Positions 1-22,521 of a DNA stretch of 23,463 nt are shown piece by piece. The stretch's first letter is position 1; each line of letters opens with the position of its first letter. The translations under genes and the position numbers were made by a program. Under the pieces are notes generated by a model that saw only the letters and a program-made list of their open reading frames with translations, was not told where the DNA came from and made no database searches. The DNA is from a virus: IMG/VR virus record IMGVR_UViG_3300025133_000606, positions 1 to 23,463 of that record; one strand, given 5' to 3'.

Positions 1-1143
1 TTAGAACACATTCATAGCGGGGAAGGTGAGACCATCCGACGCCTTGTTATTCTGTGCTCCAACATCCTCTTCAGCGATCGGCTGTACGGAAGAAGCGTCA
101 ACGGCTCCGTCCGAGGCCTGGGAATAGAGCTCAAGCTTCACCACCGAGGCGATGTTACCGAAACCCATACCCACGTCCATCCACGCCTGCCAGAAGATAC
201 GGTTCGCAATCTTATCGATATAGAACTTCACGTCGTTCAGGGTGTAGTTACGGCCGAAGAACTCCGGAGCCGTGAAGACATACACGTTGCCTTCGCGGAG
301 AATGTCGTTCTTGATCGTACGGATAACGCGCAGACCGAGGACCTTGTTGTAGGTGTAGCCATCAAGAGCGGTTTCGCTCTGGAGACGATCACCATAGTCC
401 TCGAGAGTCCACTGATCGAAATCGTCCGCATCGGACTCAGTGATCAGCATGACTGCCGGACGCAGACGGCCCTGACGGACCACGGTACCGGTAGCATCAG
501 CAACCTGTCGTTTCAGGAGCTTCTTGATGTTAACGATATCCGAGCGCTGGATAGCGAGGGTAGCGAAGGTATCCGCACCCGCAGCAACCTGGAGCGCAAG
601 CGCACCCTTTAGCTTCGAGCACGAGATAGCCGTACCAGCGTTGACGTTGGTGGCGCTGTAAGCAGCACTACCGACCTCACCCTGCATACCATCAATGCAC
701 GACTCCACGTGGTTGAGGAACTCGCGGTCCTTAATCTCAACCATATCCTTGAGGCTGTTCTCCTCAATGATACGCGTGACGGGCATTTCGTACGCCATCA
801 GCTCCTGCTCAACGATTTCGAACTTGAGGCTCGAGATCGTGAAGAAGCCGATCGCATACCGCTTACCACTGACGTAGGAAGCGGTGGGCTGTCCACGGAA
901 GTTAATGGCCATCGCCCTGCTGCCAGGCTCGATGTCCACGATCTTCACCATGGTGTCGTGCTCCGTCGAACGCTGGAGATCACCACGAACGACTCGCTCG
1001 TTGGGAATCACCATATCGGCGAAGCTCGACTCACGGAGTCGATCTTTAATGTAGTTAAGGCTAGCAGCGGCGGTCTTAGTGGGACCTTCGGTCTCCAACC
1101 GCTCAATGAAGCCTGAATTAACCATTTCAGCTGTATAATCCAT
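1..1143 (-). CDS. Putative major capsid protein (HK97-fold type), complete, 380 aa
   Basis: Likely forms the icosahedral capsid shell. No single diagnostic motif is seen; the call rests on length (380 aa is normal for HK97-fold capsid proteins), an even alpha/beta composition without low-complexity parts, the C-terminal stretch around residues 295-345 (APEFFGRNYTLNDVKFYID, then IFWQAWMDVGMGFGN) which reads like the A-domain end of phage capsid proteins, and its place downstream of a protease-like gene and next to a decoration-type gene. Residues 21-28 (PTKTAAAS) sit at the end of a short N-terminal segment that could be a maturation propeptide. The ATG at 1143 follows AAGGAG about 9 bases upstream. 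Codon use is strongly biased: I saw no AGA or ATA in the parts I read, unlike many neighbours, which fits high expression. The TAA stop is at positions 1-3. Could be another abundant virion protein; a structure prediction would settle it. Confidence 0.72.
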   Translation of the reverse strand: MDYTAEMVNSGFIERLETEGPTKTAAASLNYIKDRLRESSFADMVIPNERVVRGDLQRSTEHDTMVKIVDIEPGSRAMAINFRGQPTASYVSGKRYAIGFFTISSLKFEIVEQELMAYEMPVTRIIEENSLKDMVEIKDREFLNHVESCIDGMQGEVGSAAYSATNVNAGTAISCSKLKGALALQVAAGADTFATLAIQRSDIVNIKKLLKRQVADATGTVVRQGRLRPAVMLITESDADDFDQWTLEDYGDRLQSETALDGYTYNKVLGLRVIRTIKNDILREGNVYVFTAPEFFGRNYTLNDVKFYIDKIANRIFWQAWMDVGMGFGNIASVVKLELYSQASDGAVDASSVQPIAEEDVGAQNNKASDGLTFPAMNVF

Positions 1144-1164
1144 TGTTTCAGTCTCCTTAGCGGT

Positions 1165-1806
1165 TTATACGAGGGTTGCGTCGGGTGCGTAGCCGGGTTC
1201 CCAGCGAACACTGACATCGTTAGCGGCATGAATACGAGTAACAGTTCCGCAGAACCAGTCACCAGCTGCGACAGCGTCACCGCCGCCAGCAGCAGCAATA
1301 GCAGCAGCTGTGGTCAGGACTCGAACGTAGTCACCACTGGGCATGACGCCCCAAGCTACGTACAGGCGATCTCCGATCGATGCAGTAGTAGGAACTACGC
1401 ACATGCGAGTGCGGAACTCAGAACCCACAGGACCAGTCAGGCAGTGAGCCTTACCAGTAACCTGAGCGTCGTATCGACCGCGCTCCTGGAAGTACAGGTA
1501 CGCCGGAGCGGTACCTACATCCACGTTGCCTCCGGTATCTAGGATCAGTAGTCCTGTGGCTGCCGCTGCTGCTGCGGGAGTGTTTGCCCCTGCACGCAGA
1601 AATGCGGTCCCAGACACCGTAGCGCCAGTGATTGTGCCGTCATCCATCTCCAGCCACTCACCTTCATACAAAGGTGCAGCTGAATCGGGATTCATTGCGT
1701 TGAGGGTAGCCGCTTCACCAGCATTGGTGTTGGGTACCCAGGTTAGGTCTCGAGTATGCATCGCGGAATACCCGGGATTGAAAAGCTCGACGTATGTGCC
1801 AGCCAT
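1165..1806 (-). CDS. Probable capsid decoration or head-accessory protein, 213 aa
   Basis: No family recognised by sequence. The protein is rich in Ala, Gly, Thr and short beta-type stretches, with an Ala-rich segment at about residues 70-85 and another near residues 165-175, and it has no Lys-rich or coiled-coil part. It lies 21 bases upstream of the capsid gene in the same leftward unit, with AGGAG about 8 bases before its ATG. Many tailed phages keep a capsid-stabilising or decoration protein directly next to the major capsid gene, so that role is inferred from position and composition only. Codon use is also biased toward common codons, as in the capsid gene, suggesting high expression. 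A head fibre or minor capsid protein would fit equally well. Confidence 0.5.
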   Translation of the reverse strand: MAGTYVELFNPGYSAMHTRDLTWVPNTNAGEAATLNAMNPDSAAPLYEGEWLEMDDGTITGATVSGTAFLRAGANTPAAAAAATGLLILDTGGNVDVGTAPAYLYFQERGRYDAQVTGKAHCLTGPVGSEFRTRMCVVPTTASIGDRLYVAWGVMPSGDYVRVLTTAAAIAAAGGGDAVAAGDWFCGTVTRIHAANDVSVRWEPGYAPDATLV

Positions 1807-1826
1807 TGTAATCTCTCCTGTTTAAG

Positions 1827-2192
1827 TTATTCGCCCTGAAGGCAGAATGTGGTCAAGGGGTCGAGTATTCCCGTCCCGGGATGGTCGGAAATGTTGGCGA
1901 TCTGGATTCCTCCAGCAGCCGCCATCTTAACAGCTTCTACGACACTCTCGAGGTGAGCATGACCCCGTAGGCTTGCTACCTTCTCTTCAAATGTCATGTC
2001 TGCATTAAGTCCTTTATCTTCCATTTCCGTAGCCAGGGCAGAGATTTCAAGATCTCGCTCATTGTTTGCAAGCTTCTCTCGTAGAGAGGCATTCTCGGCC
2101 TCCAGGCTTGCTACCTTTTCGACTAGGGAACGGATTGACGAGGCTCCGCGAGCGGAAACCGCCGCCAACTGTGCATTGCCAATCTTTAGCAT
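1827..2192 (-). CDS. Small coiled-coil protein with two KVAS motifs, 121 aa
   Basis: Unrecognised. The start is set at the ATG at 2192 because GAGGAG lies 7 bases upstream; a GTG at 2213 in the same frame would put that ribosome site inside the gene. Residues 22-55 are a heptad-like, Leu/Glu/Lys-rich helix that predicts a coiled coil. Two exact K-V-A-S sites occur at residues 26-29 and 71-74, plus KMAA at 89-92, and the second half is Gly/Ile/Pro richer. It sits between disordered and capsid-type genes, so a small head or scaffold-related protein is plausible, but only by context. Confidence 0.6.
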   Translation of the reverse strand: MLKIGNAQLAAVSARGASSIRSLVEKVASLEAENASLREKLANNERDLEISALATEMEDKGLNADMTFEEKVASLRGHAHLESVVEAVKMAAAGGIQIANISDHPGTGILDPLTTFCLQGE

Positions 2193-2214
2193 GTTGTTCT
2201 CCTCACGGTGCACG

Positions 2215-2877
2215 TTAACGTCTCAGTAATTGATCTAGCCGAGCATGTCTTGCGTCAGACTCGGATAGTACATTGTTTTCTTGGTGAATAGATGCCACTT
2301 TTTCTGCCGATGACAAGTTTACCTTATCATAAGCTGCGCAGATACCAGCTAACGCTTCCTTAGTGTCTTCACCAAAGTGCCCGTCAGCAGCAAGATTAAA
2401 TAGGTCACCGTACTCGGCAACGGAGCCAGTCTTGGCAGAATCGATATCTTCTTTAGAAATGCCATACCTTGCCGCCGCTTCTGGAGTGAACTTGGCTCCC
2501 CCAAGGCCATAGGCCTTCGGGCTAATACCTTTACGGAGAAGATACTTCTTGTCCGCACGCATACCTCCGGCCACCTGCCCAGTAAGGGCACCGATTCCGG
2601 CACCAATAGCAGCTCCCGGTCCGGCCCCGCCTCGACCAGCCAGCGCTCCTGCCAGGCCACCTGCGAGAGCTCCGCCTCCTCCGCCCAGTAGGACTCCGCC
2701 CAGTTGACCCTTCAGGCGGTCGCCGATGAGCTCACTGTTCGCCATGAATTGTCCGACGCCCTTGCTGCCACCGCGCATGGCTCTCTGCATCGCCTGCTGG
2801 GCGTCCATAAAACCAGGATCGATAGTGTGCGGGTCCTGCGCCATCTTAACTAGGCGGTTGTAGGTGTTACTTGGCAT
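2215..2877 (-). CDS. Glycine-zipper virion-type protein, 220 aa
   Basis: Unrecognised family. The ATG at 2877 is chosen over an in-frame TTG at 2889 because GAGG precedes it by about 8 bases; it overlaps the end of the upstream gene by 11 bases. The N-terminus (MPSNTYNRLVKMAQD) carries an aromatic residue followed by K-M-A, like other proteins in this window. Residues about 50-100 form a long Gly/Ala segment of GxxxG type (runs such as GGVLLGGGGGALAGGLAG), the kind of stretch that packs helices in or on a membrane. The C-terminal third is polar, with EKVAS near the end. Membrane-active or ejected virion proteins often look like this, but the role is inferred. Confidence 0.6.
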   Translation of the reverse strand: MPSNTYNRLVKMAQDPHTIDPGFMDAQQAMQRAMRGGSKGVGQFMANSELIGDRLKGQLGGVLLGGGGGALAGGLAGALAGRGGAGPGAAIGAGIGALTGQVAGGMRADKKYLLRKGISPKAYGLGGAKFTPEAAARYGISKEDIDSAKTGSVAEYGDLFNLAADGHFGEDTKEALAGICAAYDKVNLSSAEKVASIHQENNVLSESDARHARLDQLLRR

Positions 2878-3628
2878 TGGTTGCCTCAAGGGCCGCTAGC
2901 CTTTCAGCAACAGAAGCCGTCTTAAGGCCTCCCTTGGCTGCAGCCTGTGGCCATGCTGCCTGTGCGCTTGCTTCACCGGTATCTCCAACATTGGAGAAGA
3001 GCTCAGATAGACGTGCCCTAACGGGTGCCTTGGCCTGACGCTTCGTTGCGTTCTCAGGAGCGGTGTTGCTGCCCAGGAGTGCCTGCCGATTAGCGTTCTC
3101 GTTTCCAGACGGAATACCAGACGCGGCCTCGGAGGCAGTAGATTCTGCGGGACCGCCTTCTCCAGCTTCCTTACTACTCATAAGGATGTCGTACAGAGAA
3201 GTACCTTCGGCTTGCTTCATGGACTCGAGAAGCTTCTTCTCGCCGTCCTTAGCTTCAGGCTCTGCGGAAGACTGTGCGGGAGATCCCCCACTAACCAGTC
3301 CTTGTGGATTAAGCTTCTTCTTCCCTGCAGCGGGAGGAACAGCCTGAGTGCCCTTGGCCTGAGTAGAACTCTGGGCAGGACTGCCTTCAGCAGCTGTCTT
3401 AAAGAAACTTCGGATCATGTCTCCTCGAATAGCTCCGGAAACACTTCCGTCGTTATTCGAAGAATATGCAATATACTCAAGGGCATCAGCTAGTTCTGCC
3501 GCCTCTTTAACTAAGAGGTCTTCTTCGGTAGAAGCAGCCGACTTAGTCATCTGAGGCACCCCTGAGTTTAGACGAGACTTAGCACTTACAAGTGCTTCGT
3601 CGATCATGCTGCGGTAATTGGTGCTCAT
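2867..3628 (-). CDS. Disordered Ser/Ala/Pro-rich protein with K-x-A motifs, 253 aa
   Basis: Unrecognised. The first 75 residues look partly helical; the rest is mostly Ser, Ala, Gly, Pro, Gln and Lys, predicting disorder. The phrase GSPAQSS occurs twice (residues 82-88 and 115-121), suggesting degenerate internal repetition. K-x-A sites occur at residues 29 (KSAAS), 41 (KEAA), 77 (KTAA), 138 (KQAE), 153 (KEAG) and 236 (KTAS). The ATG at 3628 has GAGGG about 9 bases upstream. It lies between a small gene and a glycine-zipper gene in the head block. A scaffold-like or internal protein processed during assembly would fit the composition, but nothing in the sequence proves it. Confidence 0.6.
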   Translation of the reverse strand: MSTNYRSMIDEALVSAKSRLNSGVPQMTKSAASTEEDLLVKEAAELADALEYIAYSSNNDGSVSGAIRGDMIRSFFKTAAEGSPAQSSTQAKGTQAVPPAAGKKKLNPQGLVSGGSPAQSSAEPEAKDGEKKLLESMKQAEGTSLYDILMSSKEAGEGGPAESTASEAASGIPSGNENANRQALLGSNTAPENATKRQAKAPVRARLSELFSNVGDTGEASAQAAWPQAAAKGGLKTASVAERLAALEATNAK

Positions 3629-3973: not shown

Positions 3974-4909
3974 CTAGTAGTCTAGCTCGAAGCCTTCCTC
4001 GAAGAGGAATTCTCCAAGGCGCTCATTGGCAAGCTCGTCGACGTAAGCATCAAGCTCAACATCACTAGCGTGCTTGTCATAAAGCTTCTTGGCACCTGCA
4101 CCGGCAGCAGCGAGGCCACCATACGCAGCGGTAGTCTTAGCACCACCCCGAAGAGCGGCACGACGGAGGGTATGCTGGGCAGCAGCGCGCCCACCCTTAA
4201 CGCCACGACCGAAGCCCTTAGCCTTGGAGGCCTTCAGGCCCTTCATTGCAGAGCGGACCTCGTCACCTCGAAGAGCACGGCCATAAGCCCGAGCACCGGA
4301 AGCAGCCGAAGCGCCAGCAGCCGAAGCTCTCTCTCTGGCCTTAGCGCCGAGATCGCGGGCCTGCTGAGGCACCTTCCCTGCACGAGCCTTGGCAGACTCG
4401 TATCCGCGCTTCACGGAATCGCGAGCAGCTGCGCCTTCAGCCTTGGCAGCCTCGCCCCAAGGGCCAGCTTCCTTATCCATCTCGTCCATGTAGGAACGAG
4501 CCATGTGGCGTCCGAGGATCTCGGCCTCCGCAAGCTTGGCGTGGGCCTCTTCGACCTCAGTGTCTTCGCCGATCTGTGCAGGAAGCACATCCTCGACATA
4601 GTGGTTGTACAGGTTGGCAAGATCGGTATCGTCCATAGAATCTAGGTCGATGCCCTCTGCTGCCGCCTGCTTCTCGAACAGATTAACAATTTCATCGTTC
4701 ATGGCATTAGCCTCTTTTGTGGTTTCGTAGTCGTATGACTGGTTGTTAGAAATGAACGTGGAATAGAGCTGCTCGACAGTTTCCTGGTCGAGAGACTCGA
4801 GGTCCACGTCCTCGGCGGCAGCGGCTTTTTCGAAGAGACGGACAGATGCCGCCTTTTCCAAATCTTCAGCCGTGACGCCACGTGACTCAAGCTCCTCAAG
4901 GAGTGACAT
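3974..4909 (-). CDS. Scaffold- or internal-head-type protein with duplicated acidic module, 311 aa
   Basis: Unrecognised by name. The start at 4909 is preferred because GGAG lies 9 bases upstream; an ATG at 4924 has no ribosome site. Either start overlaps the end of the upstream protease-like gene. Residues 24-52 and 76-104 are a clear internal duplication (RLFEKAAAAEDVDLESL against NLFEKQAAAEGIDLDSM, then QLYSTF against NLYNHY). Residues about 150-275 are very basic and Ala/Gly/Arg-rich with a short glycine-zipper-like part, and residues 283-311 are acidic with an aromatic end. K-x-A motifs occur at residues 19, 28, 80, 65 and 146. The position directly after the protease gene is where scaffold or core proteins usually lie; the basic middle would also suit a DNA-associated internal protein. 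Codon use is biased to common codons, fitting high expression. Confidence 0.6.
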   Translation of the reverse strand: MSLLEELESRGVTAEDLEKAASVRLFEKAAAAEDVDLESLDQETVEQLYSTFISNNQSYDYETTKEANAMNDEIVNLFEKQAAAEGIDLDSMDDTDLANLYNHYVEDVLPAQIGEDTEVEEAHAKLAEAEILGRHMARSYMDEMDKEAGPWGEAAKAEGAAARDSVKRGYESAKARAGKVPQQARDLGAKARERASAAGASAASGARAYGRALRGDEVRSAMKGLKASKAKGFGRGVKGGRAAAQHTLRRAALRGGAKTTAAYGGLAAAGAGAKKLYDKHASDVELDAYVDELANERLGEFLFEEGFELDY

Positions 4910-6857
4910 GGGTACTTTCTCCATAATTGGTTACAGTGTTTGTAGTTTGGGAGGCGGCGTCTTCGGGGGCGTACCCCTCTTCCGGCTGGCTCAATCCTAA
5001 TCCGAGACCGGGCCAATAAGCAACATGTAGCAGAAGATTAGAGATGGTAACACTATCTTCTGCAGTTTTCACATCATCTTCTATAGAAGATGATGCAACG
5101 AAGCCTACCTTGACGGCCCCCAAATCGGGAGACTTTTCTATTAACCCAAGTCTGTAGGAATTGTAAAGGCGGGAAATGTCTTCCAGGCCATCTACTTCCC
5201 TCAGCGTGGGTAGTTTTGCATTATCCGCAACCTTCGTAATACGCATCCTGACTGCAGAAGGGGCAAAAGACCTCTGGGCCAAAAAAGGACTCAATAGATC
5301 AATAACTCTCTTCATCGCAGACTGTGGCGCATACGACTGTGCGTTGAACTGGGAAGATTCTTCGGTCAGTGGCAGTGATTTAAACACCTCACCTCTCTCG
5401 TAGAGAGAATTGGCCCTGGCCGGATCTATCTTCCTAATCATAATGTGTTGAAACTCCCTAGGACGCATTACTATCCCAATCCTGGCAGCTGCGCGCAAGT
5501 TAGTCCCTGGATTATCCGAAAGTTTATCGAGGATATGTCGTGGCAGTTCGGGGAGAGTGTCCTCTTGGCCGCGCACTATACTCATCTGTTTAGGGGAGGG
5601 AGCAGGGATCTTCTTCAGCATCTCTGCCCACTTAGGCATGCTGGCTGCTTTCGTTACATCCCCTACAAGAAGCTGGTCTGCCCTACTATTAAATAGAGTC
5701 TTTAGATAAGAGAGCTGGGCAGGATACACTCCATACTGTCGGACGAATAGATTCTTAGACAGCTGGTCCCATACCTCAAACTCGCCGGCAGACATGGTGC
5801 CTGTCTTAATTCTCTCCTGGGCCAACCTCTCCTGCATAAAATAACGAAGGCCTTCCCTTTCGAGGGAGGTCTGTGCCGGAATCAGACTCAGCACCTTGGA
5901 TAGCTTCTCCTCCAGGACAAAGTCAGGGATCATGGGGGCAGGTGCTGTAACACTAGGTTCTGGTGCGGAGGCTACTTTGCCCATGGGGCGCACAAAAGGG
6001 TATATGGTCTGCGTGTACGCACGGTTTCCCTTCACCTGGTCAGTAACGTCGGACATAACCTTTGCAGAACGCTCCGCGCCAATAAACACAAAAGAATCAT
6101 CAAAGAATCTAGGATAGTCATTATACACTCCGCAAATTCTGCCATCCGAGAGTAGCGACTTCATCCCGTAGGGAGGCATCGCTGTCTTGGATACGTGCTC
6201 GCAGTAGGTCGCAGGATTCTTCGCGATGTTTCCGCAGATGGAGCAGCGATCGTATGGGACTTTACTGCCCATAGAGGAGTCGGGGAACTCTCCGGACTTA
6301 ATTCTCTGGTAGATGTGTCCGGCTCCCAGCTTGCGGCACATCTCCTCTACTAACTCTGAGACCAGGATTACTCTTTTCATCCTATCGTCCCAGAAAGCAC
6401 CAAGAATATATCCGTATGCTTTGTTGGGGTCTTTATTTACGTGGTGCCTAAATCTGTGTGCATTGTAGAAAGTAGAGTAACCCCAAGCTAAGGAGCCCCA
6501 TCTACCTGCGGACTCCACCGAGTTGGCGGCCCTTCTCCTGGCATCAATATCCCAAACTGGGATATCTTCGAACCCTGGAGGGGCATGCTTGAGGCCATCT
6601 TCCCCAAACCAGTCACCTCGTAGGTTGAATCCTACGTACTCTCCAGCACCTAAGGCAGAGTTAACTAAGTAGAGTCGTCCGGGCTGTGCCTCTAGAGACT
6701 CAATTAACTCCATGACTTCTGGAAGGTGTTCTCCAGATGCGGTCTTACACAGGCCCTCGGTATTCGAGAGACCGTGAGTAGACCCCGGCTCTACCAGGTG
6801 GATTAGGGGTCGACCTGATTTTGAGGATCCAGAGTAGTGGGAGTACTTGGTTATCAC
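4896..6857 (-). CDS. Putative prohead maturation protease with zinc-ribbon-like insert and long C-terminal extension, 653 aa
   Basis: Proposed to cleave scaffold and head proteins during capsid maturation. The N-terminal ~270 residues hold the evidence: His134/138/139, then a beta-type stretch (ILGAFWDDRMKRVILVSEL), then Ser194/195 in DSSMGSKV. The ~56-residue His-to-Ser spacing and the SxG-type context match herpes/T4/HK97-type prohead serine proteases. A CxxC...CxH cluster (Cys205, Cys208, Cys219, His221) follows and looks metal-binding. Residues 270-653 have no recognised domain; an acidic, Pro/Thr-rich tail ends the protein. K-x-A sites occur at residues 38 (KTAS), 224 (KTAM) and several later points. 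GTG start at 6857 follows the upstream stop by 3 bases and its ribosome site is weak. Position just upstream of a scaffold-like gene and the capsid gene supports the call. The long C-terminus could be a fused core or portal-associated part. Confidence 0.6.
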   Translation of the reverse strand: MITKYSHYSGSSKSGRPLIHLVEPGSTHGLSNTEGLCKTASGEHLPEVMELIESLEAQPGRLYLVNSALGAGEYVGFNLRGDWFGEDGLKHAPPGFEDIPVWDIDARRRAANSVESAGRWGSLAWGYSTFYNAHRFRHHVNKDPNKAYGYILGAFWDDRMKRVILVSELVEEMCRKLGAGHIYQRIKSGEFPDSSMGSKVPYDRCSICGNIAKNPATYCEHVSKTAMPPYGMKSLLSDGRICGVYNDYPRFFDDSFVFIGAERSAKVMSDVTDQVKGNRAYTQTIYPFVRPMGKVASAPEPSVTAPAPMIPDFVLEEKLSKVLSLIPAQTSLEREGLRYFMQERLAQERIKTGTMSAGEFEVWDQLSKNLFVRQYGVYPAQLSYLKTLFNSRADQLLVGDVTKAASMPKWAEMLKKIPAPSPKQMSIVRGQEDTLPELPRHILDKLSDNPGTNLRAAARIGIVMRPREFQHIMIRKIDPARANSLYERGEVFKSLPLTEESSQFNAQSYAPQSAMKRVIDLLSPFLAQRSFAPSAVRMRITKVADNAKLPTLREVDGLEDISRLYNSYRLGLIEKSPDLGAVKVGFVASSSIEDDVKTAEDSVTISNLLLHVAYWPGLGLGLSQPEEGYAPEDAASQTTNTVTNYGESTHVTP

Positions 6858-13204: not shown

Positions 13205-13491
13205 CGGAAGTAGTACGAGTTAACTAAGTCTCGTGCCCACTTCCTCTCTGCGGCTCGCTGCTGTCTTCGAGTAACTGGAAGGCCCTTAAGGCTGGCACCT
13301 AAAAGTCCGCCACTACCTGCACCGATAGCGCCGCCTATAAGGGCACCCTTAAGTCTGTCTTCATCATTCATCATGGCACCTGCTCCAGCACCGACAGCTC
13401 CTCCAGTGAGGGCAGCAATCGCAGGAGCGGACCCTTCTTTCCAAAGAGGGTGCTCAGAGAGAAGACCTTCGTATGCAGCTAGTTTATCCAT
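13201..13491 (-). CDS. Small glycine-zipper protein with MDKLAAYE N-terminus, 96 aa
   Basis: Unrecognised. ATG at 13491 has AGGAG 7 bases upstream and shares its A with the TGA stop of the gene before it. The N-terminus MDKLAAYEGLLSEHPLWKEG closely parallels the 121-aa protein at 22156-22521. Residues about 22-66 are a double glycine zipper (IAALTGGAVGAGAGAM and GALIGGAIGAGSGGLLGAS) separated by a charged NDEDR turn, a hairpin-of-helices pattern that could insert in a membrane. The tail is Arg-rich. A role as an ejected or membrane-interacting virion protein is inferred. Confidence 0.65.
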   Translation of the reverse strand: MDKLAAYEGLLSEHPLWKEGSAPAIAALTGGAVGAGAGAMMNDEDRLKGALIGGAIGAGSGGLLGASLKGLPVTRRQQRAAERKWARDLVNSYYFR

Positions 13492-15307: not shown

Positions 15308-15625
15308 CTACCTAAATGGATCCGGACCGTGGGCGAGGGGTGTTGGTTCATAAGGCCCAGGTCCGTGCTTTCGCTTATATGCTTTCGCACGGTTTGCTCG
15401 AATCTTGGTCTTAGCAACTCGTACCGCCTGTTCCCTTTGGGCCTTGGTTGGGGATTTCCCTCGGGCCCCGGCGGTGGCCCGGTGGATCAGGCGGGATGCG
15501 CCAACACCTACGCCAATAGCACCTGCCGCCCCCAAGACATTAAGGGCGAGACTACGCTTCTTCTTCTCGTCGGAGGCAATCTTCTCTACCTCCATAACGA
15601 AGAAATATAACTGTTCTTTATTCAT
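15308..15625 (-). CDS. Small basic protein with QLYFF...KIAS tag and hydrophobic segment, 105 aa
   Basis: Unrecognised. ATG at 15625 with GAGGGAG upstream. The N-terminus MNKEQLYFFVMEVEKIAS parallels that of the next protein upstream (MIDPDQIYFFAKEAALPS). Residues about 26-46 (LALNVLGAAGAIGVGVGASR) form one short Gly/Ala/Val hydrophobic helix of zipper type; residues 50-105 are strongly basic and Pro/Gly-rich at the end. Nine bases later the 288-aa gene starts. Probably a small virion or membrane-associated protein. Confidence 0.6.
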   Translation of the reverse strand: MNKEQLYFFVMEVEKIASDEKKKRSLALNVLGAAGAIGVGVGASRLIHRATAGARGKSPTKAQREQAVRVAKTKIRANRAKAYKRKHGPGPYEPTPLAHGPDPFR

Positions 15626-15627: not shown

Positions 15628-15885
15628 TTATCTCCCTCTACGTCGTAAGACACCGCTGAGACGATCGAATACCCGTCGAGTCTTACGGCCGGCGCGGAAG
15701 GCGCGAGATCTGAGCTGCTGCGTCCTCTGCACCTGACCCATGCTCGCAACTGCAGTGGCTCCAGGAGAGCGTTTGGAAGCTAGCTGGGCCAGAGACTTAC
15801 CTGGTGCGCCCATCTGCAGCTGCTTCGTGTAAGAAGGTAGGGCTGCCTCTTTAGCGAAGAAATATATCTGGTCCGGATCAATCAC
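15628..15885 (-). CDS. Small basic protein with QIYFFAKEA tag, 85 aa
   Basis: Unrecognised. GTG at 15885 with AGGAG 6 bases upstream. After the N-terminal QIYFFAKEAALPS, shared with its downstream neighbour, the protein is extremely basic, with Arg/Gln/Ser in the second half (for example RAFRAGRKTRRVFDRLSG), and has no hydrophobic segment. Such a chain would bind nucleic acid or neutralise packaged DNA; that is inferred from charge. It is separated by 2 bases from the next gene. Confidence 0.6.
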   Translation of the reverse strand: MIDPDQIYFFAKEAALPSYTKQLQMGAPGKSLAQLASKRSPGATAVASMGQVQRTQQLRSRAFRAGRKTRRVFDRLSGVLRRRGR

Positions 15886-15894: not shown

Positions 15895-17904
15895 CTATAC
15901 TGCATACGTTTTCAGGGACTTCAGTCCGCTGATCACGTCTTCTAGTGCAAACATCGCTCTGACTGCAGCTGTCTTCGGGACTGCCTGAAGCCCTAGCTGT
16001 GAAGCCAAGACGAGAGAGGCGAGCTTAGTAGAGACATCCTCTAGGTGAGGAAGGTTCTCTACGAACGTCTCTACATTCTCAGGATTGAGAAAGTTAAGCG
16101 CCAACACAGCATCTACAGAGGCGATATCCACCATCGCAGAGGCTTTCTTATCGAAGGTAATGGCGGCCATTTCCTTGAGAAGATTGACTCTCTTAGGGAG
16201 TTCAATTTCCCCCATGTCAGCTGCGGCTTCTTTGTTAGCCGCTTCAATCACTTCTGCATGCCCACTTAGGGGACGGAGACCGAAGATCCGAGTGGGCTCT
16301 CCACTACTGGCTGCCTTCTCGAGTAGCGCGGAGCTCAAGTTCTGAGGAACTCCTGCAGCGGCCAACCAGAAGACACCGTCTACCCAGTCGTACTCTCCGC
16401 TTCCCACCTTCTCAAAGACGGGGCCGGAGAGCTTACAGCCTCCTGCCCAGGCACGGATCTCTGCCATTGTGTCATAGGACTGAGCCTGTGCGGTCTTCAT
16501 GCCTTCTTCTCCGCCAGCAAGCTGTACGGGGTTGTCCAAGGGCATGAACTTAAAGTCCGCAGGAATGACAATCTCCTGGGGAGAGGTAGCAACAGGGGAG
16601 GCAATTCCTTCAGAAGGAAGGATTCTAATGTCGTTGCCCATAGTGTCTTGGGCAGCAAAGTAGCTCTTACCTTCGATATCTACCTTGGTGATGATGTTGT
16701 AGGGGACCGTGGCAAACACGCCCTTATCATTGACCTTCACAAAGATGCCGAGCCCTCTCATATTGGGGGCATCAGGGACGGGGAGGTTAGTGTTCACGCC
16801 TACAAGCGCACCCATAATGGTGGGCTGGATCGCATACTGACTGCCGTTAGTGAACACGGACATCGAGGAAGGCTGTCCCGTAACGGGGTCAAACACTCCG
16901 GGAATCACATACCCGATGAGCTGCTTACCTGTAGTTGCGTCCGTAACTTTGTAGAGTCCAAACGCTGCGGCTGGGCCCATCTGCTCACTCATAGGATCAG
17001 GGGCGGCCTCTACATTAGTAACCGTACCCGCACCTTGCTGATCAGCAGCTTGGAGCATCTCGGGAGGGACCGACTGCTGGGCTTGCTCTGCAGATACTTG
17101 CTGCTGCTGGGGAGCCATTCCCTCTGGAGCAGCGGAGTACTTAATGATGTATCCGTACCCATTGGGTCGCACCTGAACTACATCCATACCTGCGGTGAAT
17201 GAGGCAGCAGCGGCAGAAGCAAGCTTCTCCGTGCTGCAGATAGGTTGAGATGTGAGGCGATCAAGACACTCCATGACCGAAGCATTCTTCTCAATCATCC
17301 TCCGGACCTGGGGGTCTCGGAACGTAGTATTGAAGCGCTCAAAGTCGGTCTCGTTTAGAGTGCCCGAGATCTGCTCGCATAGTGAGGCATATTTGTTGTC
17401 CATTTTTCGTTCTATCCTCTTTAGTCGGCCGCGAGTCTCCGCGTGCCTGGAGGTCTCCTTCATCGCTTTTAGTGCTGCCTTAGCTTGAGCACTTCTATGG
17501 ATAAAGTCGGCCAGCTCGGGATCGATATTACCTTTACGAAGTATTCGCTTGGCCTGTGCAATGTTTCCTTTGTCGATAGCCCGGGCCAACAAACCTACAA
17601 GTCCGCCTCCTAGGGCCCCTATTAACAGGCCAATTAGCACAGCCCCAGCCTTGCCCTTTACGGCATGCGGTAACGCAACCAAACCCCCCATGATGCCTCC
17701 GATCAAGGCACCAGTCCCTCCGGACGCTAGGAGGTCGGAAGGCTTTTCTTTTGCCTTCGCGTTCAAGTACGTGACGTACGCTTTCCTTCTAGAATTGTAA
17801 GGGATGGCGGCATTCATCATGCGCTCATCATCCAGGGCGGCCCCCGTTATCTTCGCTTCTTTATCCATTAGTTTCTCCGCCTCCGTATTCATTAACTTGC
17901 TCAT
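15895..17904 (-). CDS. Large virion-type protein with N-terminal glycine zipper, 669 aa
   Basis: Unrecognised. ATG at 17904 has AGGAG 6 bases upstream and overlaps the previous gene by ATGA. Residues 1-60 are charged with DKEAK; 61-107 are a long glycine zipper with two hydrophobic helices; 110-170 are basic and helical; 225-300 contain Gln/Pro-rich linker (QQQQ near 257-260); 310-465 look like beta-rich folded domains; 470-669 are helical with many K-x-A sites (KTAQ, EKAAS, NKEAA, KKASA, TKLAS, PKTAA). Met168 at 17403 has AGAGGA 11 bases upstream and begins MDNKYAS, so a second start or an old gene fusion is possible. Probably a tail, internal or ejected virion protein. Confidence 0.6.
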   Translation of the reverse strand: MSKLMNTEAEKLMDKEAKITGAALDDERMMNAAIPYNSRRKAYVTYLNAKAKEKPSDLLASGGTGALIGGIMGGLVALPHAVKGKAGAVLIGLLIGALGGGLVGLLARAIDKGNIAQAKRILRKGNIDPELADFIHRSAQAKAALKAMKETSRHAETRGRLKRIERKMDNKYASLCEQISGTLNETDFERFNTTFRDPQVRRMIEKNASVMECLDRLTSQPICSTEKLASAAAASFTAGMDVVQVRPNGYGYIIKYSAAPEGMAPQQQQVSAEQAQQSVPPEMLQAADQQGAGTVTNVEAAPDPMSEQMGPAAAFGLYKVTDATTGKQLIGYVIPGVFDPVTGQPSSMSVFTNGSQYAIQPTIMGALVGVNTNLPVPDAPNMRGLGIFVKVNDKGVFATVPYNIITKVDIEGKSYFAAQDTMGNDIRILPSEGIASPVATSPQEIVIPADFKFMPLDNPVQLAGGEEGMKTAQAQSYDTMAEIRAWAGGCKLSGPVFEKVGSGEYDWVDGVFWLAAAGVPQNLSSALLEKAASSGEPTRIFGLRPLSGHAEVIEAANKEAAADMGEIELPKRVNLLKEMAAITFDKKASAMVDIASVDAVLALNFLNPENVETFVENLPHLEDVSTKLASLVLASQLGLQAVPKTAAVRAMFALEDVISGLKSLKTYAV

Positions 17905-19205
17905 TTGGATCTCCTAAACCAGTTTAAAGGGTTCAACCCTTGCCTGGTTCCTCTAAGGAAGTCCGTCTCTGAAGCTCTTCGAAGCTGCGACTCTGACAGC
18001 TCCTTAGCTGCTGCTGCTGTCTCTCGCCTATGGCTGGATAGTCGAGAATCCACATTCTTTAAGACGGCAGAAGAAGCCTCGTCAACTTTGTCGCCCACAT
18101 ACTTGGTAGTCTTGTCTGAGAGTTTCTTGGCAAACGGGATAGCGAGTTTCTTGGCTACGGCCGTACCGGCCAAGCCAACCCCTGCACCTACTCCGGCATC
18201 CATAGCCACATCTCCCCACCGGTCCTTGGACCTCTTCGCATACTCCCCTGGGGAGATCTTACCTGCCCGGAGAGCCTTCATATCCTGTCGCATCTCTTTT
18301 CTCTGCCCCAAAGCAGTACTCAAGCCGACCCCGGACCCTATAATGGCAGGGGCAGCTACATAAGGAGATAGCCACGAGCCTTCCTTAATGCTGCGATCGA
18401 GGTCACTGAGGATAGCCAGGTTTCGCCCGGTATCGTACTGCTTACCTGCTCCTCCTGCAGCCAACACCCCGCCTGCCGCTAAAGCAGGGGCAGCACCTCT
18501 TGAGTAGAGATCCTTAGTAGTCCTCCCTGCCTCCGTAGCGGCCTGAGCCAGTCTCCTCCGAAGTGGGCCTCCTTTTAGGGCTCCCTTCGTTCCTCCAATA
18601 ACTATGCCCGTTAGGGTGGGAGCAACAATTCCCCCACCTACTGCACCTTCGGCCATAGCGCGCATCCTCCTATTTCGATGCTCTTTGGCGGTTACTCCGG
18701 CCTGTTCTGCCTGAACTCCTGCAAGTGTCGCCTCTACACCCATAGGGTCAATGCTACTCACGAGGTCCTTCAGCCTGGCGGCTGCGGTTTTAGTTCTCTT
18801 TTTCTTTGGATAAAATGCTCCTACGGCAGTCTCTCCGACTCCGATAGACCTCTCTACATTTGTCGGCAGCAACTTTTTATCTCTGAGAAGTTTAAGAGTA
18901 TCTGGCCCAATGTTTCCTTTGGCGAGTTGTCCAGCTAGCGTCGAGACCCCTTCTCCTTTCTCAAGGATAGAGCCTCCTACAGAATCGAGCGCTTGAGCGG
19001 AGGACAGCTTGGCGTGTTCTCCTGGCTCCCAAGACTCACAGACGAAGTTACTTTGGCAGATAAACTTGTACTTATCGCAGTACCCTGCACCTTCGTCATC
19101 CGTACGAAAGAACCTGCAGGAGCCGCACTTCTGCTCGCCCGACATAGTCGGTCCGTACTCGGGAGCATCTCCCTCTGCTGCAATCTTTTCGTAGAACGGA
19201 AGCAT
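17901..19205 (-). CDS. Glycine-zipper protein with N-terminal Cys cluster, 434 aa
   Basis: Unrecognised as a whole. ATG at 19205 shares one base with the upstream TAA and has AGGA 8 bases before it. The N-terminus MLPFYEKIAAEG carries the aromatic-K-x-A tag. Residues 27-56 hold five cysteines (CGSC at 27-30, Cys43, Cys50, Cys56) with Phe/Tyr and a final CESWEPGE, a compact module that could bind zinc or an Fe-S cluster. Residues about 185-250 and 285-360 are Gly/Ala-rich zipper segments separated by basic parts; the tail is basic. A membrane-interacting or internal virion protein is likely from composition and context. Confidence 0.6.
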   Translation of the reverse strand: MLPFYEKIAAEGDAPEYGPTMSGEQKCGSCRFFRTDDEGAGYCDKYKFICQSNFVCESWEPGEHAKLSSAQALDSVGGSILEKGEGVSTLAGQLAKGNIGPDTLKLLRDKKLLPTNVERSIGVGETAVGAFYPKKKRTKTAAARLKDLVSSIDPMGVEATLAGVQAEQAGVTAKEHRNRRMRAMAEGAVGGGIVAPTLTGIVIGGTKGALKGGPLRRRLAQAATEAGRTTKDLYSRGAAPALAAGGVLAAGGAGKQYDTGRNLAILSDLDRSIKEGSWLSPYVAAPAIIGSGVGLSTALGQRKEMRQDMKALRAGKISPGEYAKRSKDRWGDVAMDAGVGAGVGLAGTAVAKKLAIPFAKKLSDKTTKYVGDKVDEASSAVLKNVDSRLSSHRRETAAAAKELSESQLRRASETDFLRGTRQGLNPLNWFRRSK

Positions 19206-20620
19206 TAAGCCAATCCTGCTACTGCCTTAGGCTTGTGGTATCGATAGCCCTTCTTCTCCTTAGAGAGGAGAAGGAAGAGGCCAGGTGATCTTCTATTGGA
19301 TCGGGCAGCTCTAATTTCGGAACGCATAGGGCCTGCCAATGCCTGCCGAAGCTTTTGCTGGTTCTTGATCTTACCTAGTTTCTTCGCCAGGGTCTTGTGA
19401 ACTCCTACGACGAACTTGGTTCCGGGGACTGGGAAGAAGAAAAGGTCCATCGGCACAATGCCGGGAGCTAAAGGAATCTTGACTCCCTGCATCACCATGT
19501 TGCTTGGGATCCGACGACCTGCATCGAAGTTCAGAGGAACCATCGCCTCTTTCTCCAACTCAGCGCTCTTCTGGGACTCCTTCCCGTGCTTTACGCCAGT
19601 GAGGTACCCTCTTCGTCCTCCAATAACGTAGCCCGTTCGAAGACCCTCTTTCTTGCCCTTCTTCTTACCGACAGTGTGTCCTGCACCTACACCTGCAGCA
19701 ACGGCACCTGCAGCTAGAAGACGGCCTTTGGTACTGGCAGCCTTCACGCCCATCTCATTCAGGCCCAGCTCAGCTCTCTGGCCCTCTCGAGTATTGCGCT
19801 GCTTAGCCTGGACTGCAGAGTTGATTCCGGCGATGCCTGCTCCAGTCGTCGCACCAGCAAGTGCGCCTCCCTGGGCAGCTACGAGTCGATTCTTCCAGCC
19901 GCCCTTTCCTCTGATCGCTCCCTTCGTGGCACCGATCGCAGCACCGGCCAGAGTAGGAACAACACCTCTGCGCACTTCTTGCTCTGCTCTCTCTTTAGAA
20001 GAGAGGCCCCGCATATACGCGTCCTGCTTTTCAGTTCTCTTTAGGTTAGACAACGTTGATAGTTGACCAGCGCTCATATCCGCCGGGGCAGATCCTGTCT
20101 TGATGCCTGCTGCCGCTGCACCCCCAATTACACGACCAAACCCTTGTCGCTGCTGGTAGGGAGGATACAGCTGATCGACCATAGACTTCTGAGTCTTAGG
20201 CTGGTTCGCCGGCCCATCAAACAGGGCAGGATTCATCATCGCGGCATCAATTCTCTCCGCAGTAACGGGATGGATTTGCCCGCCAATCTCAAAGGTATGG
20301 AAGGGCTGAAGCAGCCTATCCGCTACGATCAGAGGAATCCTAATGATGTTCTCTGTATTCTTAGACTCGGTAGCTGCTCGGGGATCATTCTTTGACAAGA
20401 TCGTGGCGTGCCCAAACGCGAACCCCGCCTCGGGCTCCACTCGCTGCATCGCGATATCCACGTCGTACTTACTCAAGAAGGGAAGCTGCTTGTAGAGCTC
20501 GGACAGGATGTGTGACGGCCATTTCTGATCGTCATCCGGCATCTTGGCGACAGAGGCCTCTTTCTCGAAGAAGGCATGAGGATCAACGTCCGGTAGAAAT
20601 AGTAAGTTGCTTGTGCTCAT
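19205..20620 (-). CDS. Virion-type protein, folded N-terminal domain plus glycine zippers, 471 aa
   Basis: Unrecognised. ATG at 20620 is chosen because GAGG lies 8 bases upstream; frames further up have none. Residues 15-24 (HAFFEKEASV) form the aromatic-K-x-A tag. Residues about 35-140 look like a folded domain, including GFAFGHATILSKND, NIIRIPLIVADRLLQPFHTF and EIGGQIHPVTAERIDAAMM. Residues about 215-290 and 305-350 are Gly/Ala/Lys-rich with zipper spacing; a second EKEAM lies near 370. The C-terminal ~100 residues contain a hydrophobic PMDLFFFPVPGTKFVVGVH and a basic end. Likely a structural or ejected protein; a tail-tip role is possible because the spike gene is near. Confidence 0.6.
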   Translation of the reverse strand: MSTSNLLFLPDVDPHAFFEKEASVAKMPDDDQKWPSHILSELYKQLPFLSKYDVDIAMQRVEPEAGFAFGHATILSKNDPRAATESKNTENIIRIPLIVADRLLQPFHTFEIGGQIHPVTAERIDAAMMNPALFDGPANQPKTQKSMVDQLYPPYQQRQGFGRVIGGAAAAGIKTGSAPADMSAGQLSTLSNLKRTEKQDAYMRGLSSKERAEQEVRRGVVPTLAGAAIGATKGAIRGKGGWKNRLVAAQGGALAGATTGAGIAGINSAVQAKQRNTREGQRAELGLNEMGVKAASTKGRLLAAGAVAAGVGAGHTVGKKKGKKEGLRTGYVIGGRRGYLTGVKHGKESQKSAELEKEAMVPLNFDAGRRIPSNMVMQGVKIPLAPGIVPMDLFFFPVPGTKFVVGVHKTLAKKLGKIKNQQKLRQALAGPMRSEIRAARSNRRSPGLFLLLSKEKKGYRYHKPKAVAGLA

Positions 20621-20630
20621 CTGTTTATCC

Positions 20631-20918
20631 TCAAGTAATCGTAGTCGAAGTTCCGGTCCCAGTCCCACTACCTACTGCGTAGGTCTCTGCAGGAGAGACC
20701 CCAACGGGAGTTTGGGCAGTTACCGTAGAGACTGAGGTAACAACCAGCATGTTTGTAGTTATATGCGTAATCACAGCTTCAGCGATAGCCTCAAAAAGCC
20801 AGTCCAACTGGTCTTCCATGTTATCTGCGAAATCAGTGTTCTTCTGCTTGACCAGGTCCTTAATCTCTTTGGCGAGAGATGGAGTGCCTGCATTCGCGGT
20901 TCCTGGAGACATCGGCAT
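20631..20918 (-). CDS. Small baseplate-linked hypothetical protein, 95 aa
   Basis: Unrecognised. ATG at 20918 follows GGAG by 8 bases and shares its A with the spike gene's TGA stop, so translation is probably coupled. Residues 15-55 are an amphipathic helix (NMEDQLDWLFEAIAEAVITH) and residues 58-95 are Thr/Val/Gly-rich with a low-complexity GSGTGTGTSTT end. Small proteins following gpV-type spikes are often baseplate components, so that role is inferred from coupling. Confidence 0.55.
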   Translation of the reverse strand: MPMSPGTANAGTPSLAKEIKDLVKQKNTDFADNMEDQLDWLFEAIAEAVITHITTNMLVVTSVSTVTAQTPVGVSPAETYAVGSGTGTGTSTTIT

Positions 20919-22150
20919 CACTCACTCTCCAGGGTATTGGATAGGTAGGGGGCCCCCGCGCCGACTGATTCTATGACGCTCGCTACAAATTCATCAGTAC
21001 TGGGTGTAGGTATTCCTAGGCCCTTAAGTGCTACGGAGATCTCTGTTAGGGATAGGGCTAAGTCCGATATGAGGGAGTATCCCCTCGTGACAGGCTCTGT
21101 AGAGCCCTGACTACCTGTAGTGATCAGTACCTTCTTTGCACCTGCAGCCTCTGTATTTGTAAAGGGAGTAGAACTGCCAACTACGATCTCTACCCATTTA
21201 GAAGATGCATCGATCTTCACAGCCCCCTCAGTCTCGAGCTGGAGGTCGCCCTCTCTATCTATCCCTAATGACAAAGACTTCTCAAGTTTGTCTTCGGATA
21301 CGGTCTCATCCTTAAAGACGGTGAGGTCAACAACTGTGGCACTCGGGTTCACAGCCTTAATCGTCTTGGTCTTGACTGTGATCTCTTGTCCGGGGATAAC
21401 GCTTACGACATCCTGTCCCTCTACTTTCTTGCTGGTAGAGGACAAGGTGTACTTAAATTCTGTTTCTTCCTCGGTCTGCTTTTCTGCATCATCCCCAGAC
21501 TGAAGGGGGAGAACTTCTCCAGTATTTCCGAGCGTCAATCTGACGCTGTGCCCTGGGTGCTCTGCAAACTCTTTGGCCTTAATCTGGAACCTAGTCCCCA
21601 TTAGCCCGTCGCCGCTCTCCTCACGACGCAGGTTTCTCCAGTCCAGAGACCCTCCGAAGGTTTGTACCTCGTATGTCTCTGCGATGTTGAGAATTCTATT
21701 ACGGGGCGGATCGAAGATTATCTTAGATAGCGGGGTTCCTCGTAACTCTACTACTCCACCTCTGCGGAGGGCGAGGCCGTTACCGTCTCTCGTCAGGAGA
21801 GCTAGATCTCCTGGATTTAGGAGAGGGCGGTTCATATCGAACGACCCTGGCTGGGAGTCTGCGGACGCGTCTTTAACTATGCTAGCACCCGACAGTAGCA
21901 GGAATGCCGTATCTTCAGAATCAGAAGGCACACAGACCCAGACGAAGCAACCGACCTCTGGCATGTAGTGAATCCCCTCCCCACCCGCAGCATGCGAGTA
22001 GAGGGAAGGAATCCGCACATTCATCATCGGCTTGTTGGCCTGTTTACAGTACACCTTGCACAGCCACCTAGACGGAGACACTTCAGTGACTCTGCCCTGG
22101 TAGATGCGAGTAGCGCTTGGACGCGCCGGTGCTGCTGCGTTTCTGCCCAT
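20918..22150 (-). CDS. Putative baseplate central spike protein (gp5/gpV OB-fold type), 410 aa
   Basis: Probably forms the trimeric puncturing spike at the tail tip of a contractile phage. Residues about 16-108 read as the OB-fold of gp5/VgrG/gpV proteins: YQGRVTEVSPSRWLCKVYC, then NVRIPSLYS, GIHYMPEVGCFVWVCVPSD and AFLLLSGA (strand G..V near start, PEVG turn, closing LSGA). Residues 130-170 (GDLALLTRDGNGLALRRGG then VELRGTPLSKIIFDP) fit the following domain of these spikes, and residues 240-330 are Thr/Val/Lys-rich beta repeats suitable for a beta-helix shaft. The length is in range. ATG at 22150 with AGGG 3-4 bases upstream, a short spacing. No lysozyme domain is present. A tail-associated hydrolase-free gp45-like protein is the alternative. 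Confidence 0.6.
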   Translation of the reverse strand: MGRNAAAPARPSATRIYQGRVTEVSPSRWLCKVYCKQANKPMMNVRIPSLYSHAAGGEGIHYMPEVGCFVWVCVPSDSEDTAFLLLSGASIVKDASADSQPGSFDMNRPLLNPGDLALLTRDGNGLALRRGGVVELRGTPLSKIIFDPPRNRILNIAETYEVQTFGGSLDWRNLRREESGDGLMGTRFQIKAKEFAEHPGHSVRLTLGNTGEVLPLQSGDDAEKQTEEETEFKYTLSSTSKKVEGQDVVSVIPGQEITVKTKTIKAVNPSATVVDLTVFKDETVSEDKLEKSLSLGIDREGDLQLETEGAVKIDASSKWVEIVVGSSTPFTNTEAAGAKKVLITTGSQGSTEPVTRGYSLISDLALSLTEISVALKGLGIPTPSTDEFVASVIESVGAGAPYLSNTLESE

Positions 22151-22155
22151 GATCC

Positions 22156-22521
22156 CTACTTCTTGTTACCTAGTGCGTATGCACCGCCCAGTCCGGTTGC
22201 TGCGCCACCGCCTACGATAGTCCCGCCAATGGCCTTGTTAGAGACGTTCTTACCAAACATCTGGACTCCCTGCCCGCCCTTACCGGCCTTCATGCCTAAG
22301 CCTCTAAGTCCCCCGCTGGCCTTAGATCCAAGGCTAGTCAGTGCCTTTCCGGCATTGGATATGACGGCACCCCAAGCTGTTTTGTCCAGCTCATGGAATG
22401 CCTGCAGGTATGCTTCTGGCATCTCCCCAGTACAGGTTCCATAATTCTCTAGTAAATACTCCGCACGCTTTTCCATAGCGTGCTGCTCTAGAGCGACCTC
22501 ATATGCTGCGATTTTGTCCAC
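22156..22521 (-). CDS. Small glycine-zipper protein with MDKIAAYE N-terminus, 121 aa
   Basis: Unrecognised. GTG at 22521 follows GGAGG by 6 bases. Its first 19 residues (MDKIAAYEVALEQHAMEKR) match those of the 96-aa protein at 13201-13491 in M-D-K, A-A-Y-E, and the H-x-[LM]-x-K spacing. A second DKTAW lies at about residue 46. Residues 52-118 are Gly/Ala/Lys-rich, with a C-terminal zipper (AIGGTIVGGGAATGLGGAYA). It lies 2 bases after the beta' gene and 5 before the spike gene, so all three are in one leftward unit. Confidence 0.65.
   Translation of the reverse strand: MDKIAAYEVALEQHAMEKRAEYLLENYGTCTGEMPEAYLQAFHELDKTAWGAVISNAGKALTSLGSKASGGLRGLGMKAGKGGQGVQMFGKNVSNKAIGGTIVGGGAATGLGGAYALGNKK

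Follow-up and report, generated by a model that had tools for sequence, protein, structure and literature searches.

Why the leftward genes of a single phage record should so often encode the same short signature, Lys-x-Ala followed by Ser or Ala (K-x-A-[SA], x being any residue), is the question raised by IMGVR_UViG_3300025133_000606, a phage record of 23,463 bases that was analysed in full and is called the window here. The initial annotation suggested that the signature could be a cleavage site of the phage maturation protease or a capsid-targeting signal. The Lys-x-Ala signature is real, strongly over-represented and conserved, and it belongs to head assembly and not to the virion generally. 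Judged from sequence, K-x-A, cut after its Ala, is probably the cleavage code of the head maturation (prohead) protease of this phage lineage, and the window encodes a candidate for that enzyme of 653 amino acids (aa). This reading is supported by an enrichment specific to K-x-A-[SA], its concentration in a head gene cassette, the retention of K and A around a variable middle residue, retained sites in the protease and capsid proteins, and a parallel in phage T4.

Counts were pooled over 22 leftward genes, with the terminase and a fragment of an RNA polymerase beta'-like subunit (RpoC) excluded, and compared with mono- and dipeptide shuffles, the control proposed in the initial annotation. K-x-A-[SA] occurs 39 times against 8.9 (mono) or 12.6 (dipeptide) expected, and K-x-A-S 25 times against 3.0 or 4.3; none of 1000 shuffles reached either count. 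K-x-A-A alone is weakly enriched (14 versus 5.9 or 8.3), and K-x-A-[TGN] is at chance (9 versus 8.3 or 8.6). Chance counts were also obtained in these genes when Lys was substituted (R-x-A-S, 2 versus 3.6; Q-x-A-S, 2 versus 2.4; D-x-A-S, 3 versus 3.4; E-x-A-[SA] likewise) and when the spacing was shifted (K-x-x-A-[SA], 12 versus 11.6; K-A-[SA], 13 versus 10.1, dipeptide shuffles). Gene by gene, K-x-A-S stands out in the 309-aa protein (6 versus 0.16), the 669-aa protein (6 versus 0.36), the protease (3 versus 0.24) and the 128-aa protein (2 versus 0.07).

The view that nearly all leftward proteins carry the motif was too broad: the excess is far beyond chance, but K-x-A-[SA] is present in 15 of the 22 and absent from seven. 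Six proteins (128, 253, 316, 653, 309 and 669 aa) reach p ≤ 0.01 singly, uncorrected. The sites named earlier in the capsid protein (KTAAAS, residues 23-28), the protease (KTAS 38, KVAS 294, KAAS 403) and the 309-aa protein (six K-x-A-S) were all recovered, as were those in the 253-, 316-, 669- and 487-aa proteins (the second and last listed originally as 311 and 471 aa). The 434-aa protein, also named as a carrier, is at chance (2 versus 1.03). The scarcity noted in the terminase and rightward genes is real as a count, since the terminase, the RpoC fragment and the five rightward genes have no K-x-A-[SA], but it is not significant and proves nothing alone, because just 1.1 was expected there.

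Relatives were collected by scanning viral contigs twice, which gave 15 and 20 loci, and include contigs of 164.6, 142, 151 and 131 kb. The 45.5-kb contig G006 encodes a protease 100% identical to that of the window and comes from the same or a nearly identical phage. Seven phage records match the protease: Vibrio phages D69, D181 and D148, Salmonella phage Arash, Bacillus phage G (two records) and Mycobacterium phage Myrna. In an unbiased scan of gapped three-residue patterns with offsets of up to six, seen at least 8 times, K-x-A-S came out on top in the window (z 11.3) and also in G006 and G002; it placed second in G004 (z 7.2), while in G003 it was fifth (z 5.6) and in G001 seventh (z 6.3).

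The least biased test of conservation took all 38 K-x-A sites of six families (309, 653, 316, 253 and 128 aa, and the capsid protein), whatever the next residue. The pair was kept in 304 of 398 comparisons with group relatives (0.76), against 0.29, 0.29, 0.48 and 0.22 when K and A stand at spacings of 1, 3, 4 and 5, respectively. Identity was 0.83 for K, 0.44 for x, 0.82 for A, 0.46 for the next residue and 0.47-0.62 at other offsets; two kept residues flanking a free one are expected of a short recognition motif. In a broader alignment of 16 families, each with up to 15 relatives, the K of K-x-A-[SA] was kept in 285 of 354 cases versus 2098 of 4047 for other K, the A in 295 of 360 versus 3034 of 5749, and the S in 155 of 253 versus 2112 of 4817. 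The 29 sites picked for recurrence gave identities of 0.95 (K), 0.53 (x), 0.96 (A), 0.69 (S/A) and 0.55-0.70 (flanks).

These results bear on the simplest objection, that the signature is an artefact of composition or of coiled coils in proteins rich in Ala and Lys, or the outcome of common descent from one repeated module. The proteins are indeed Ala-rich, K-x-A with any fourth residue is just 1.6-1.7 times expectation in the window, and small proteins starting MDK[IL]AAYE recur. Nevertheless, the excess survives dipeptide shuffles, motifs in which K is replaced or the spacing changed stay at chance, conservation is spacing-specific, and the flanks differ between proteins. Artefact or descent is hardly credible as the explanation, and a composition or coiled-coil effect was rejected at the level tested by the shuffles, the substituted motifs and the spacing controls.

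The protease gene lies in a head operon beside scaffold-like and capsid genes. The head cassette, defined from the 309-aa scaffold-like gene through the protease to the capsid gene, has in the window the order 309-123-206-protease-316-253-224-128-213-major capsid protein (aa), and the order is similar in Arash and D69. As contigs G003 and G004 yielded no capsid gene, they were excluded from the cassette counts; G006 was in addition excluded from the ranking of gene runs for K-x-A-[SA]. K-x-A-[SA] in the cassette exceeds expectation 4.9-fold in G006 (22 versus 4.5), 7.4-fold in G002 (30 versus 4.1), 6.2-fold in G001 (26 versus 4.2), 6.7-fold in Arash (20 versus 3.0) and 5.9-fold in D69 (25 versus 4.2). 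Among equal-sized runs of consecutive genes the cassette ranked 1 of 137 (G002), 1 of 166 (G001), 3 of 189 (Arash) and 2 of 230 (D69), and the runs ranking above it in Arash and D69 overlap it.

For the remainder of the genome, Arash and D69 are at expectation (38 versus 36.4, 1.0-fold, and 32 versus 36.5, 0.9-fold), and a general virion or tail signal was rejected on this ground. In the uncultured group other genes (669, 408 and 487 aa, and small proteins) also have sites, and the rest of the genome stands at 1.5- to 2.3-fold; the 669-aa protein is perhaps another head or ejected protein. The 213-aa protein, whose gene immediately precedes the capsid gene and occupies the position of that for the decoration protein gp26 in phage G, has no K-x-A-[SA] site; presumably none would be needed by a protein that joins the shell from outside.

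The same test was applied to T4 as a control. A cassette of four genes (141, 212, 269 and 521 aa), which by order and size we take to encode gp68, gp21, gp22 and gp23, contains 36 [LI]-x-E versus 14.2 expected and ranks 1 of 226 gene runs, with the rest of the genome at 1.13-fold; K-x-A-[SA] is at 2 versus 1.9. Thus, the test picks out a known code in genes of this kind. Singly, the T4 head proteins rank 1st, 3rd, 10th and 14th of 14 listed for [LI]-x-E, with non-head proteins between them. Whole-genome pattern scans failed to place known codes at the top, with I-x-E-A at rank 286 (z 3.7) in T4 and A-x-E-S and V-A-x-E at z 2.7 and 3.0 in phage SPN3US. In the latter, a 419-aa protein whose N-terminus corresponds to gp53/54 (PMC5694885) has 11 A-x-E versus 4.8, third of five listed. 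K-x-A-S is not enriched in SPN3US (10 versus 16.6) and little in T4 (23 versus 16.0). Phage G shows an enrichment over its first 77 kb (17 versus 6.1, rank 41 of 16,600), and the protease tops the single proteins of that stretch for K-x-A (8 versus 2.4).

Since T4 cuts after L/I-x-E (PMC9026906), the same motif could be the real code of the uncultured group, with K-x-A something else. Conservation makes this very remote: at 36 sites the pair was kept in 171 of 358 comparisons (0.48) versus 0.47-0.54 at spacings 1, 3, 4 and 5, and x is as conserved as L and E. The motif does reach an excess in the cassettes, with [LI]-x-E at 42 versus 24.6 in G006 (rank 1 of 33), 48 versus 22.3 in G002 (rank 1 of 137) and 31 versus 23.5 in G001, and [LI]-x-E-[AGS] at 12 versus 7.1, 14 versus 6.1 and 10 versus 6.5, respectively. 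However, there is no excess in D69 (24 versus 22.7) and little in Arash (29 versus 21.1, rank 25 of 189), and three to five pairs per genome precede K-x-A and so belong to its context. As the pair is not kept beyond the control spacings, it is more likely a by-product of acidic, leucine-rich helices than a second code.

The 653-aa protein matches phrog_18299 (head maturation protease), with E values of 6.9e-5 for the window, 2.1e-6 for Arash, 6.6e-7 for D69 and 2.6e-19 for phage G. An alignment of nine proteases, 26-67% identical to that of the window and including those three phages, has 34 invariant columns, among them K38, A40, H139 and S195, and we infer a catalytic role for H139 and S195. 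At KTAS 38, just before the protease domain, K-x-A is found in 13 of 13 orthologues, including Arash and D69, and is invariant out to phage G. At KVAS 294, in a linker with a predicted local distance difference test score (pLDDT) below 50, it is present at the column in 10 of 13.

A separate feature of the protein is a Cys-x2-Cys-x10-Cys-x-His cluster (residues 205-221) beside the candidate catalytic Ser, invariant in the nine proteases out to phage G; it looks like a metal site inside a head protease.

The capsid protein was assigned from matches to NCBIfam NF042927 (HK97-fold major capsid protein, E 3.2e-4, below its cut-off) and phrog_2522 (E 0.0025), a tblastn match to Vibrio phage D69 (E 4e-15) and 24% blastp identity to the annotated Arash capsid protein; a search against PDB sequences gave a single weak, unrelated match (E 0.25). 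Its KTAA is kept in six aligned group orthologues, and Arash (LVKEAGAAMS) and D69 (LTKEAGAAMS) have KEAG, one column shifted, at the homologous place before an -LRE- stretch, despite a capsid identity of about 24%. The sites before the protease domain and in the capsid N-terminus are retained where capsids are about 24% and proteases about 26-35% identical. The counterparts of the 309-aa protein at the same gene position are likewise rich in K-x-A, with 10 versus 3.0 in Arash (308 aa) and 11 versus 3.9 in D69 (311 aa).

In the structural model of the 309-aa protein (mean pLDDT 74), residues 105-155 are disordered, with sites 104 and 126 in or next to them; sites 46 and 77 are found where helices end, and the poorly kept sites 184 and 239 within long helices. 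A helix also contains site 273 (KVAT; K and A invariant in ten sequences), which agrees less well with cleavage. One could suppose that K-x-A is an uncut docking motif, a short helical segment binding core proteins, the protease and the capsid N-terminus to a common prohead partner. The preferences seen over 185 sites, many of them orthologous copies, for L/F at -2, E at -1 and E/D at +6 would be in keeping with an amphipathic helix, the fourth position is loose, and the conserved sites 46, 77 and 273 are in or at predicted helices. A docking helix should, however, keep its hydrophobic face, whereas conservation is confined to K and A, and position -2, with an identity of 0.61 over the 38 cassette sites, is no better kept than other flanks. 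The placement of sites 104 and 126, and of the protease and capsid sites directly before a conserved domain, also speaks against docking, which we consider unlikely.

Under the cleavage reading, the code would have Lys at P3, any residue at P2, Ala at P1 and often Ser or Ala at P1', with Leu or Phe favoured two residues before Lys and Glu, Thr or Val just before it. We infer that the 653-aa protein is an active protease cutting at these sites, and propose the bond and the order of events as follows. An inactive protease would be built into the prohead core and free itself by cutting KTAS between Ala40 and Ser41 and the KVAS linker between Ala296 and Ser297, releasing its C-terminal helical domain. 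In Arash, the predicted cut in protease gp222 would change QAAAAEIDDFVK to AAAEIDDFVK. The freed enzyme would then cut the scaffold-like proteins (309, 316, 253 and 128 aa) into pieces and remove about the first 25 residues of the capsid protein, after which the shell would mature and DNA enter. Some small internal proteins might be brought into the core by an N-terminal leader that is then cut off, as are the capsid-targeting sequences of T4.

This leader, made of an aromatic pair, acidic residues and K-x-A, was found in 17 of 673 proteins of five contigs versus 2.2 in shuffled N-termini, counts in which the 487-aa family enters more than once; with R for K there were 3. By eye, the bodies of the leader-bearing proteins differ. 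A DNA version matched 27 stretches in viral contigs, of which 14 lie in the 23 group contigs (found by protease or terminase), versus none of 21 stretches with R. Both patterns were drawn up after the sequences had been seen; at least 3 of the 14 group stretches (in L125, L132 and L136) are source sequences, and L119 repeats those of L132. The T4 protease gp21 cuts leaders of 10-19 residues that direct proteins into the core (PMC9026906). These capsid-targeting sequences of T4 are the obvious model, being short N-terminal leaders on different proteins that end in the protease motif. The capsid-targeting idea of the initial annotation fits the subset of proteins with an N-terminal leader and not the rest.

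The leader could also be a second signal, FFx[DE]E[LIV][EQ]KxA, that packages small proteins uncut next to a separate cleavage code in the cassette. The protein and DNA scans, which with R for K gave 3 proteins and no stretch in the group, would agree with such a signal. We nevertheless rate it as highly unlikely: the leaders have the very K-x-A of the cassette at their end, and in T4 cutting of the leader takes place at the protease motif (PMC9026906). The pattern is also post hoc, and several matches are source genomes.

Several observations weigh against the cleavage reading. The identity of the protease rests on the phrog_18299 match, gene position and the conserved His and Ser. Most of its domain has pLDDT below 50 in the AlphaFold model, Foldseek found no match at E ≤ 0.001 for this model (against BFVD) or for that of the 309-aa protein, and no match was obtained against PDB sequences. 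Pfam gave no match of note and NCBIfam none, save a weak one for phage G, and an hhalign comparison of the protease alignment with the T4 protein taken as gp21 was unconvincing (probability 0.28%). Arash, D69 and phage G have several K-x-A in the stretch after the domain, and the column of the release site depends on the aligner. The phage G capsid protein has no K-x-A, and the pattern is not clear in the three Myrna proteins examined. The limits of the cassette were set after the sites were seen, and the [LI]-x-E excess of the uncultured cassettes counts on the same side. The fourth position is loose over all cassette K-x-A, and ten sites kept in half or fewer of the relatives may be chance.

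Known head proteases offer partial parallels. The system of T4 gp21 shares a short P3-x-P1 code that is densest in the genes for the protease and for scaffold, core and capsid proteins, but the conserved pair is K-x-A here and not L/I-x-E, and no convincing sequence relation was found between the proteases. In T4 the scaffold is cut into fragments and N-terminal propeptides of 7-65 residues are removed (PMC9026906). SPN3US cuts after A-x-E, with Val preferred at P4 and Ser, as in the Ala-Ser bond proposed here, at P1' (PMC10052503). With phiKZ and 201phi2-1 it shares multi-site propeptides, auto-cleavage, many inner head proteins and a virion RNA polymerase (PMC10052503, PMC5694885), but these phages and T4 all cut after Glu (PMC5694885), and A-x-E and S-x-E show no excess in four cassettes. 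The homologous proteases of phage G (gp19), Arash (gp222) and D69 (VPHD69_0270) have K-x-A ahead of the domain and again in the stretch that follows; a difference is that K-x-A is missing from the capsid protein of phage G. Herpesvirus assemblin cuts between Ala and Ser. It is also made as a protease-scaffold polyprotein with a release site (PMC4498786), but has no sequence match to the window protease, whose domain model is of low confidence.

Most likely, then, the code differs from those of T4 and the giant phages and keeps the P3-x-P1 form common to known codes. We suggest, tentatively and with somewhat less than an even chance, that an undescribed Lys-P3/Ala-P1 code extends across the uncultured group, Arash, D69 and phage G and is coupled to a cleaved capsid-targeting leader, FFx[DE]E[LIV][EQ]K-x-A, that loads small proteins into the head. 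On that Lys-Ala and leader reading, the Ala-Ser bond would resemble the herpesvirus bond more closely than it does the Glu codes of T4 and phiKZ. If the code is real, an old enzyme would have changed its specificity but neither the P3-x-P1 layout nor its set of substrates, and head, scaffold and cargo proteins could be recognised from sequence alone in phages with unannotated head genes. The leader, should it prove real, could serve as a ready tag with which to package proteins into heads.

Among open-licence full texts, none was found that joins "KxA" with phage, capsid and protease, and among the matches listed none joins "K-x-A" with prohead protease and cleavage site; the titles listed by further searches give no hint of such a code. 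The Arash virion contains 116 proteins, including RNA polymerase subunits, which are abundant (PMC10585845); in the main text of that paper "cleav" and "protease" occur 0 times. In its Table 2, sequence coverage does not match peptide counts: the DNA ligase gp177 (1083 bases, 360 aa) is given 100% coverage from 2 unique peptides (PMC10585845). The use of this proteome as a direct test of cleavage was dropped, the coverage column not being trustworthy at face value.

Table 1. Genes and K-x-A sites of the window, with retention of K-x-A in orthologues where counted (coordinates re-checked for 30 sites)
Feature	Position	Strand	Remarks
Candidate head maturation protease, 653 aa, C-terminal helical domain	4896-6857	-	phrog_18299; homologues in D69, Arash, phage G
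KTAS, residues 38-41, just before protease domain	6735-6746	-	predicted self-cleavage after Ala40
KVAS, residues 294-297, linker after protease domain	5967-5978	-	predicted release site
KAAS, residues 403-406, second low-confidence protease linker	5640-5651	-	9/11
Major capsid protein, 380 aa	1-1143	-	NF042927, phrog_2522, D69, Arash
KTAA, residues 23-26, capsid protein	1066-1077	-	predicted cut after Ala25
309-aa scaffold/core-like protein	7853-8782	-	six K-x-A-S
KAAS 46, 309-aa protein	8636-8647	-	12/12
KAAS 77, 309-aa protein	8543-8554	-	8/12
KVAS 104, 309-aa protein	8462-8473	-	11/12
KVAS 126, 309-aa protein	8396-8407	-	12/12, x variable
316-aa head-cassette protein	3974-4924	-	
KAAS 24, 316-aa protein	4844-4855	-	11/11
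KAAA 33, 316-aa protein	4817-4828	-	10/11
KQAA 85, 316-aa protein	4661-4672	-	10/10
253-aa scaffold-like protein	2867-3628	-	
KSAA 29, 253-aa protein	3533-3544	-	10/10
KEAA 41, 253-aa protein	3497-3508	-	10/10
KTAA 77, 253-aa protein	3389-3400	-	9/10
KTAS 236, 253-aa protein	2912-2923	-	8/10
128-aa coiled-coil-like protein	1827-2213	-	
KVAS 33, 128-aa protein	2106-2117	-	9/9
KVAS 78, 128-aa protein	1971-1982	-	9/9
KMAA 96, 128-aa protein	1917-1928	-	9/9
669-aa protein	15895-17904	-	sites 206, 530, 558, 586, 627, 644: 10, 11, 9, 10, 11, 10 of 11
KEAS in FFEKEAS near N-terminus of 487-aa protein (gene 19205-20668)	20552-20563	-	8/8 covering orthologues
KIAS ending leader MNKEQLYFFVMEVEKIA of 105-aa protein (gene 15308-15625)	15572-15583	-	leader pattern scans
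KEAA ending leader MIDPDQIYFFAKEA of 85-aa protein (gene 15628-15885)	15841-15852	-	gene outside protein leader scan
[LI]-x-E-rich head cassettes	G006:36112-44891; G002:103486-111668		
Poorly kept sites: 309-aa 184, 239; 316-aa 284; 669-aa 171, 227; 487-aa 309			
Poorly kept sites: 410-aa 93; 801-aa 44; 680-aa 416; 2108-aa 452			

At two of the poorly kept sites, 171 and 227 of the 669-aa protein, K-x-A is present in 2 of 11 orthologues each, and at site 78 of the 128-aa protein the fourth residue is S or A in none of nine orthologues. Elsewhere in the window, the terminase matches phrog_675 (E 7.8e-59), and a baseplate-like OB protein matches PF04717 below the cut-off. Adjacent leftward genes overlap by about 20-40 bases when the longest open reading frames are taken (4896-4924, 2867-2889, 7853-7878 and 20631-20668); this is perhaps translational coupling, depending on the choice of start.

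The small proteins starting MDK[IL]AAYE are encoded at 13201-13494 and 22156-22521 (both on the minus strand), and like starts occur up to three times in the relative L023, some with HPLW. The initial annotation had counted most small zipper proteins as carriers of the motif, but these two share their start with small proteins of relatives and so are probably paralogues, members of one family, and not independent recurrences. The end of the window (22524-23408, minus strand) encodes the C-terminal part of the RNA polymerase beta'-like subunit (PF04998, phrog_25354), and G006 also encodes a 2108-aa open reading frame that is kin to the polymerase subunits of Arash and D69. With the annotated starts, the Arash subunit gp206 (L037:3294-7871) begins MPKSAS and its D69 homologue (L036:8631-13214) MPKKAS, each with K-x-A-S at residue 3.

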